Shown here piece by piece: positions 24,602-27,600 of a DNA stretch of 64,000 bases. Both the position numbers and the translations under genes were made by a program. The stretch's first letter is position 1. Each line of letters begins with the position of its first letter. The notes under the pieces were generated by a model. The model did not search any database, was not told where the DNA came from, and saw only the letters and a program-made list of their open reading frames with translations. Origin of the DNA: Actinostola sp. cb2023 (taxonomy: Eukaryota > Cnidaria > Anthozoa > Actiniaria > Actinostolidae); contig JAUJYZ010000222.1 in NCBI GenBank assembly GCA_033675265.1, positions 62,001-126,000 on the forward strand, in the 5' to 3' direction.

Positions 24602-27600
24602 CTTTGTAAGAAGAAAATATCAATATTGAATTATGCGTCTTTTCTTATTAGTCATCACTGTCATATATAGATTACTTACGGTATCTTCGACTAAGGTCGG
24701 GGTATCGGGTACACTAGTCTTATTAGTCATGACTGTCATATAGATTACTTACGGTATCTTAGGTCGGTATCTTAGTCTTAGTCATGACTGTCATATATAG
24801 ATTACTTACGGTATCTTCGACTAAGGTCGGAGTATCGGGTACACTAGTCTTATTAGTCATCACTGTCATATATAGATTACTTACCATATCTTCGACTAAG
24901 GTCGGAGTATCGGGTACACTAGTCTTATTAGTCATCACTGTCATATATAGATTACTTACGGTATCTTCGACTAAGGTCGGGGTATCGGGTGCACTAGTCT
25001 TATTAGTCATGACTGTCATATATAGATTACTTACGGTATCTTCGACTTAGTCATGACTGTCATATATAGATTACTTACGGTATCTTCGACTAAGGTCGGA
25101 GTATCGGGTACACTAGTCTTATTAGTCATCACTGTCATATATAGATTACTTACGGTATCTTCGACTAAGGTCGGGGTATCGGGTACACTAGTCTTATTAG
25201 TCATCACTGTCATATATAGATTACTTACGGTATCTTCGACTTAGGTCGGAGTATCGGGTACACTAGTCTTATTAGTATACTGTCATATATAGATTTACTT
25301 ACGGTATCTTCGACTAAGGTCGGAGTATCGGGTACACTAGTCTTATTAGTCATCACTGTCATATATAGATTACTTACGGTATCTTCGACTAGGTCGGGGT
25401 ATCGGGTTCTAGTCTTACTTAGTCATGACTGTCATATATAGATTACTTACGGTATCTTCGACTAAGGTCGGAGTATCGGGTACACTAGTCTTATTAGTCA
25501 TCACTGTCATATATAGATTACTTACGGTATCTTCGACTAAGGTCGGGGTATCGGGTACACTAGTCTTATTAGTCATCACTGTCATATATAGATTACTTAC
25601 CATATCTTCGACTAAGGTGGGGGTATCGGGTACACTAGTCTTATTAGTCATCACTGTCATATATAGATTACTTACCATATCTTCGACTAAGGTCGGGGTA
25701 TCGGGTACACTAGTCTTATTAGTCTTCACTGTCATATATAGATTACTTACCATATCTTCGACTAAGGTCGGGGTATCGGGTACACTAGTCTTATTAGTCA
25801 TCACTGTCATATATAGATTACTTACCATATCTTCGACTAAGGTCGGGGTATCGGGTACACTAGTCTTATTAGTCATCACTGTCATATCATAGGCTTCGTT
25901 CACAAAACTGCTGTCCGTCTTCCTTTGAATTGGTGACTTGACAGGCTTTTCTTTCAAAACCTTTTCTTGCGAATACATTCTGTGATTTTAAAATATATAC
26001 TTTCGGTAAGAAAATGATTACTTTCTTTTTTCTCTTTCTATGAACTTTCCTTTTTAGATCTTTGTAAGTTATAATATATTTGATAATATGTCTACAAGAT
26101 AATGCACGACACAGAAGAACTACGAACTATATCATCATCATCATCATCATCATTCATCGTCATCATCGTGAATTAATGTATTGACCATATGAGGTGCATG
26201 CGTGATGTATCCTGGAATTACCCATAATGTGAGCAGTATTCATGAAGAATTCAAGACCCACATCATCATTATCATAATTCAGTTATCATCATCATATCCA
26301 TCGTGATCTTCATCATCGATCGTTATCATCATCGTGATCGCAAGACTATAATTCTATAATAATTCTTAGGTTTTGTCCTTACCTATTTCGTATGATGCAA
26401 CAGTAGATTAGAAATCCTAAGAAGATGATCAGCAAAAGGAAAGCCAGAAGCACCCAGAAGAATATCCCTGTAATGGAAGAACAATGTATGAAAAGAAAGC
26501 TTTCGAAATATCGAACTGGAAGTAAGTGGGAATAATAATAATAGTAGGCTTCAATTTTTTGTAATTTTTTTTTTTTTTTCTTTCTGTTTTATTTCGTTTC
26601 CAGTTGTTTTGTTTTATTTTGCTTTTTTTGTTTTTTGTTTTGCTTTGTTTTGCTTTGTTTTTCTTGTGTTTTGTTTGTTTGTGTGTGTGTGTATTGTTTA
26701 TATCGTGTACTTACACCACCACCACGTTTCATAGTCAGGTTGATCATTTGGCGAAAAAAAAGCACGTGTAATATTTCCTAGAATTCAAAAATAATACAAT
26801 CAAGTTACAAAACTCTCCTTACAACAAAATTTCATATCGGTATATACTTCATGGCTGAATTTCACATAGTCGAACCGTAATCCCAATCCTAATCTCAACG
26901 ACGTCTATATTATATTCAGCCACAAAGTATATACCATGAGCAGATATGATGAGAAATCTTGAGAATTGGGTGATAATTTAACGAGGTTCATTCGATTAAT
27001 TGACTAATTTTACCAGTTTCGTCATACGGGACCATACGAAATGCTATTTCATTCTTAAATGTTGCAATTACCTCCGACTTGGGTTCCAAACAAGCCTATC
27101 CTTAAACAGATTCTGGTATCCCATGCGACAGGTCGAACGCGTATGTATTTTGCTTTGACTGAATATGGAAGCCTATTGCACATAGTCGTATTACCATCCT
27201 TATTGCCCTTAAATACCTGTGTGAGACGCAAATAAACAAAGAAGCGTTAAGAATAGAAGTAATTCTTGTTCCCGTGAGTTATTGCAATTTGTTTGGTTGT
27301 CAGGAAGTGATGTTTGTAGTGTACCGATGCATGCCGGTATTATATAGACCCCGATGCATGCTGGATAGAGCAGCGGCCATGTGGAATAAAAGGGTTAATC
27401 ATGTATGTGAATCCTTGAGTATTGCATCCGTTCAATCCCCTCGCTAAACACCACATCTGGCGACGAGGATAAAAAAAACAAAAAAGAAAAACACGTAAAG
27501 AGTCTGCAGAAAGGAATTTGAGGGAAGATGGCCGTCAGTTTAAGTGGTCTGACTGGTCTCAAAGAGTTTGATACGGTTGGAGAGCCAGCCACGCTCGCCC

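Follow-up and report, generated by a model that had tools for sequence, protein, structure and literature searches.

The 64-kb window, by which we mean the whole stretch of Actinostola sp. DNA that was analysed, carries on its minus strand a gene that can be read as seven exons, bounded internally by AG/GT and consistent in phase. In this spliced gene model, exon 1 (35726..35819, minus strand like all exons that follow) encodes a signal-peptide-like start, its N-terminus aligning with the orthologue from Actinia, while exon 2 (33809..34006), exon 3 (32945..33114) and exon 4 (27072..27216) encode the F5/8C domain matched by PF00754, with the domain ending in exon 4. Exon 5 (26383..26467), also supported by the Actinia alignment, contains the transmembrane helix, identified by eye as a hydrophobic segment. 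The tail exon, exon 6 (25826..25979), retains an ancestral end that aligns to VNEAYDMAVVTKSGATTPETVEEL of Actinia, and exon 7 (24380..24601), the last coding exon, begins at the acceptor CTTACAAAG/GGCGAT, is likewise placed by the gene model and the Actinia alignment, and encodes HTYENV near the C-terminus. The spliced product of 355 residues thus has a signal-peptide-like start, an F5/8C domain, one hydrophobic helix and a cytoplasmic tail, a layout in common with the Actinia protein and characteristic of an F5/8C receptor; the domain was found by Pfam (PF00754, F5/8 type C, E = 2.2e-19), the signal peptide and helix by eye. With seven spliced exons, consistent phases and the PF00754 match, the discoidin receptor gene model of the earlier note, which had been drawn from this DNA alone, holds. 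We rejected an identity as a DDR tyrosine kinase, as the 355-residue product has no kinase family at E <= 0.001 in Pfam; because of this missing kinase domain, the name discoidin-domain receptor applies to the gene loosely, and it is not one of the DDR kinases.

Three other features of the neighbourhood were recorded. Intron 3 of the receptor gene holds an open frame of 757 codons on the opposite strand (27643-29913, plus strand) that resembles a retrotransposon protein by eye, and a receptor-tyrosine-kinase-like exon, also recognised by eye, lies upstream of the gene (54734-54462, minus strand). A neighbouring receptor-like gene contains an 82-bp minisatellite (41532-42663), which starts about 20 nt past the donor at 42683 of a tail-like exon.

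At the end of exon 6, the 5' splice site has been amplified. The tandem array spans about 24643..25892 on the minus strand (best-scoring Tandem Repeats Finder (TRF) row, 1504) and contains 17 GTAAGT donors between 25825 and 24679, the first being the exon 6 end itself, ATG/GTAAGT, followed by 16 more. Donor intervals are exactly 75 bp in 11 of 16 cases, the others being 73, 74, 44, 57 and 73 bp. Each unit comprises about 60 nt of exon end and about 15 nt of intron start (GTAAGTAATCTATAT), and the first repeat copy is the last 60-odd nt of exon 6. The proposal that an exon end and its donor were amplified into about 17 units therefore agrees with the donor count and spacing, and its figure of about 12 repeated intron bases is corrected to about 15. 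Because the 11 full-length units differ pairwise at no more than 5 of 75 positions, the amplification would appear to be recent or homogenised. With head-to-tail, near-identical units longer than about 10 bp, the array is a minisatellite. The rest of the 64-kb window has 16 further GTAAGT motifs on the same strand. In all, 19 tandem arrays (period >= 15, copies >= 3, score >= 100) make up 12.7% of the window, and the receptor array is alone among these 19 in carrying GTRAGT in its TRF consensus unit.

Tandem arrays are the usual place for misassembly, and the length or even the existence of this one could in principle stem from that source. This reading is very improbable, given that the units carry distinct substitutions and indels, that exon 7 and the tail match the receptor locus only, with no match elsewhere in the 424-Mb assembly (1594 contigs), and that similar arrays stand on other contigs. 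When 280 bases of exon and array were compared with the genome, all 8 matches fell inside the array itself. A haplotype copy or paralogue of the receptor tail with which to compare array length was likewise not found in this one 424-Mb assembly. The receptor array is a real and unusual structure. An acceptor-like CTTAG is also present in most units, so that unit-by-unit splicing with 11-nt microexons is conceivable from the sequence. Separately, we noted arrays at C56:131914-132311 and C79:1318941-1319800 with units of 77 bp and 63 bp, respectively, that combine an acceptor-like tract (TTACCGTACAG and CCCCCCTTAG, respectively) with a donor, and each of these units could be a mini-intron plus a microexon.

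Reading on from exon 6, the frame stays open for 136 codons past donor 1 (open frame 25987-25418), to a TAA at 25415..25417 in unit 7. Donors 1-6 (25825, 25750, 25675, 25600, 25525 and 25450; 25445..25825, minus strand) are in frame with exon 7 and all enter it in phase, with predicted products of 355, 380, 405, 430, 455 and 480 residues. Unit 7 has both the stop and a frameshift, and donors 7-17 (24674..25377, minus strand), lying beyond them, yield no full tail. An open frame through at least six donors and 25 residues added per step had both been foreseen correctly; the further claim that each donor is usable in phase applies to donors 1-6 and fails for donors 7-17, leaving 6 of 17 rather than an isoform series in which every donor is open and in phase. 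Based on composition, a unit whose length divides by 3 and whose three free intron codons contain no stop would arise by chance with a probability of about 0.27, which makes the open frame alone weak evidence for function. Selection for the open frame was not detected by indel position, with indels in 0 of 5 donor-proximal and 5 of 11 distal segments (Fisher P = 0.12, 16 segments), nor by unit length, which is a multiple of 3 in 5 of 9 exon-anchored arrays (P = 0.14) and in 4 of 6 Pfam-supported arrays when the window's array is counted in (P = 0.10).

The donors are of two kinds. Donors 1-4 and 14 read ATG/GTAAGTAA, with a predicted U1 duplex energy of -10.7 kcal/mol, while the other 12 read ACC/GTAAGTAA at -7.3 kcal/mol; elsewhere in the gene, the five donors lie between -5.5 and -10.3 kcal/mol. 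Donor 1 (25820..25825, minus strand; ATG/GTAAGT) therefore matches or exceeds every other donor of the array in duplex energy and is probably the principal 5' splice site. A fall in strength along the array had been suggested from the G at -1 of the proximal donors and the C of the distal ones, and the difference in energy agrees with this except at donor 14, which is again of the ATG kind. RNA structure did not emerge as a selector, the first 360 nt folding no better than shuffled sequences (z -0.24), and by a local folding estimate the ATG donors are less accessible than the ACC donors, opposite to their U1 strength.

For competition between identical donors, we drew on a published study of human genes assayed in human cells (PMC9225289). 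Five minigenes there each held an identical pair of CAG/guaagu donors, with flanking introns of 365 nt, and only the upstream donor was used. The authors' rule is proximity across the exon under exon definition, and across the intron where introns are short; they place the switch to intron definition, which favours downstream donors, at introns of 200-250 nt. Of human alternative 5' splice-site events, about 60% favour the downstream donor without an equal-strength filter, and 60% favour the upstream donor once filtered for equal strength (PMC9225289). Our locus resembles the minigenes in having identical donors after one acceptor under exon definition, and differs from them in that its donors are natural, number 17 and come in two strengths, where the minigenes have two engineered identical ones. 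With an upstream intron of 403 nt, an exon 6 of 154 nt and 1224 nt of intron between donor 1 and exon 7, this would be a case of exon definition, and donor 1 would by analogy be expected to win. Farther along the array, the strong donor 14 would leave an intron of 283 nt, and donors 15-17, all of the weaker kind, introns of 208, 151 and 78 nt.

These short introns bear on a reading in which splicing shifts, under some conditions, to the donors farthest downstream, so that the array dampens receptor expression through coupling to decay. Every one of donors 7-17 is past the stop, use of donor 17 would leave about 735 nt between the stop at 25415 and the last junction downstream of it, and the last intron can shrink to 78 nt, in the range where intron definition favours downstream donors according to the same study (PMC9225289). 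Yet 10 of the 11 donors from 7 to 17 are without the exonic G and so weaker, and donor 17 would enlarge the exon from 154 to about 1300 nt, and we regard regulated output of this kind as improbable.

The first protein search returned a sole match, a 'coadhesin-like' protein from Actinia tenebrosa that covers 97% of the query at 53% identity, and the two proteins are 57% identical in alignment. The Actinia tail reads VNEAYDMAVVTKSGATTPETVEELD-GDEIQEV, a single copy of the exon end running directly into exon 7, so that the protein has one junction. A profile search, with 8000 candidates scored, gave 26 proteins. Of the 12 of these 26 that were examined, just two carry a tail that can be compared: the Actinia protein and P0003. 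The latter, a 2007-base contig with source tag lgn that represents 96 sequences, is a more distant relative, 39% identical to the Actinia protein, and has a DEVQEV stretch; no repeat was seen in it, and its exon end is too diverged for close alignment, so that it adds little further information. When the tail and the array part of the six-unit form were used as query, the Actinia protein alone was recovered at E <= 10 among the 8000 best candidates scored. As far as present data go, the repeat appears to be lineage-specific, and a conserved function of the array found no support, given the Actinia orthologue without the array and P0003, in which no repeat was seen.

We performed four genome-wide pattern searches for similar arrays and examined, among the matches listed, the flanks of 14 array families outside the window. 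Since at least three of the 14 (C155, C244 and C1564) were chosen for a coding-looking first unit, the fractions given here are not estimates. Arrays that carry donors are common, with no excess found: triple matches numbered 1305 against 14891, 1309 against 1530, 350 against 556 and 188 against 199 for the reversed-motif control, which is an imperfect one, with matches overlapping within arrays. In 5 of 14 families (C155, C244, C42, C758 and C1564) the first donor ends a Pfam-supported exon, and in three more (C345, C453 and C1363) it ends an open frame that looks like an exon but has no convincing match in Pfam. No exon was seen in the flanks read at another five (C48, C56, C62, C67 and C536), and for the remaining one, C819, the sequence examined stopped short of the first donor.

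Of the five supported families, C155 has a tyrosine kinase exon (PF07714), which we take to be FGFR-like, in three copies at 133000-142000, 171500-180500 and 157250-158300 (L050, L051 and L057) with 4, 8 and 3 GTAAGT donors, respectively, so that copy number differs between the paralogues. C244 has a kinase N-lobe exon with 7 donors at 398550-399550 (L058; PF07714 E = 4e-5, just above its cut-off), and C42 a Kelch exon with 13 donors at 51000-55000 (L054; PF01344 E = 4.8e-13). An F5/8C exon stands at C758:263650-264060 (L061; PF00754 E = 1.2e-7), its exon copy seeming by eye to be frameshifted near the end, and an EGF exon with 81-bp units, and 7 donors within the stretch examined, at C1564:21850-22700 (L062; PF00008 E = 1.4e-10). 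The open exon-like frames ending at a first donor are at C1363:517243-519500 (L064), C345:76100-77041 (L060) and C453:637750-638310 (L065), the last with a hydrophobic segment followed by RKR.

In the C155 kinase family the units are 87 bp (one of 93), and the third paralogue has irregular spacing and frameshifts; more distant kinase loci showed no such repeated matches in the match list. The units start at a CCAG common to exon and intron, as expected of a duplication primed by short homology, which this start would fit. We tried two joins: by donor 1 the product contains one PF07714 stretch, and by donor 2 it contains two, with a higher total Pfam score (131.1 versus 114.7 bits) because part of the kinase domain is doubled. 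A working kinase would thus seem to need donor 1, and the coding stretches of L050 and L057 carry stops or frameshifts. Read-through past donor 1 continues for 1 codon in C453, 2 in the Kelch array, 21 in C244 and 165 in the EGF array; two C155 copies reach 37 and 137. The feature common to these arrays is a first donor at the exon end, and openness is not common to them. The EGF units hold 3 of 6 cysteines, and EGF models continue to match a read-through form, in three stretches; for this reason the EGF array, together with the discoidin tail, would be the best place to look for isoforms.

The earlier note had envisaged a signalling tail whose length varies with splice-site choice and, between individuals, with repeat number. 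In the form weighed here, donors 1-6 would all be used and add 0-5 extra units of 25 residues, each bringing one tyrosine (NLYMTV), and the strength of the donors and the length of the array would tune the outcome. Six in-phase donors with an open frame, four of them equally strong, five proximal segments without indels, a cytoplasmic tail in which insertions could be tolerated, and a second open exon-anchored array in the EGF exon all speak for it. Against it stand the single copy of the Actinia orthologue and the lack of a repeat in P0003, the strength of donor 1, the exclusive use of the upstream of two identical donors in the minigenes (PMC9225289), the roughly 27% chance of the frame, and sister arrays that close early, after 1, 2 or 21 codons, or would double part of the catalytic domain. 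We therefore set it aside as the main mode and consider a full ladder of this kind unlikely, while a splice-tuned tail from donors 2-6 at a low level is possible. A broader version is somewhat more doubtful still: exon-anchored 5' splice-site arrays would occur in many genes, and in the open, in-phase ones (the discoidin tail and the EGF exon) some use of later donors would grade protein length by repeat unit, repeat number and donor strength jointly setting the number of tail tyrosines.

Instead, we favour, with a probability of roughly 0.73, a minisatellite born across a 5' splice site, whose first donor is mainly used and whose extra copies are spliced out. A 75-bp segment spanning the exon 6 end and its 5' splice site would have been duplicated in tandem, giving a minisatellite that sits almost wholly in intron 6; through exon definition, splicing would occur mainly at the first, exon-proximal donor, removing the array and leaving the tail with its ancestral single-copy sequence. 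Donors 2-6, at 25 residues each, would be at most a minor by-product, and any transcript made through donors 7-17 would carry a premature stop. The single-copy junction of Actinia, P0003 without a repeat, the strength of donor 1 and the exon-anchored arrays elsewhere support this first-donor account. Several observations count against it: the introns left by donors 15-17 fall below or at the 200-250 nt switch to intron definition, the folding estimate disfavours ATG donors, the discoidin and EGF frames remain open for 136 and 165 codons, the proximal segments are free of indels as frame selection might give (at the Fisher P of 0.12), the C155 donor-2 join has the higher Pfam total and the EGF read-through form keeps its matches. 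The exon-definition data are also human, and the unfiltered human events favour the downstream donor in about 60% of cases (PMC9225289). As a general rule, we infer that a genome may tolerate duplications across a 5' splice site since definition of the exon stays with the first donor, and the recurrence of the architecture in other genes fits such a rule. A minisatellite-rich genome that keeps duplications spanning 5' splice sites would be the most economical account.

Related systems share parts of this arrangement. Introns can be gained by tandem duplication of an exonic AGGT segment, which, like the array here, involves tandem duplication across a splice-site-like sequence that is absorbed by splicing; the difference is that here an existing intron grows and none is newly made. 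The W repeat units of EBNA-LP are complete exons with both splice sites, whereas the units described here pair an exon end with a donor and have no more of an acceptor than a CTTAG resembling one. In both, protein length could be set by repeat number through splicing. Alongside a report on EBNA-LP (PMC5834210), the literature offers the ABCA7 VNTR, an intronic minisatellite linked to splicing (PMC5954066), and the CeRep25B minisatellite near alternative splicing regions of C. elegans (PMC4039745). These two minisatellites resemble our case as intragenic tandem arrays overlapping or near splice decisions, with length variation expected; here, in contrast, each unit is a copy of the exon end with its own 5' splice site, and the array starts at a real exon. 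Among the titles and abstract openings surveyed, from a search mostly outside subscription journals, we recognised no report of an exon end and its donor amplified in tandem.

The competition study worked with two engineered donors (PMC9225289). This one genome offers natural series of them: in several genes a real exon is followed by 3 to 17 donors that are identical or nearly so. Such arrays make it possible to ask if the first donor wins every time, over what distance exon definition acts, and whether the arrays stay silent or leak isoforms graded in length. They suggest that 5' splice sites are a sheltered place for minisatellite growth inside genes, where splicing most likely removes the extra copies unseen, without lengthening the protein.
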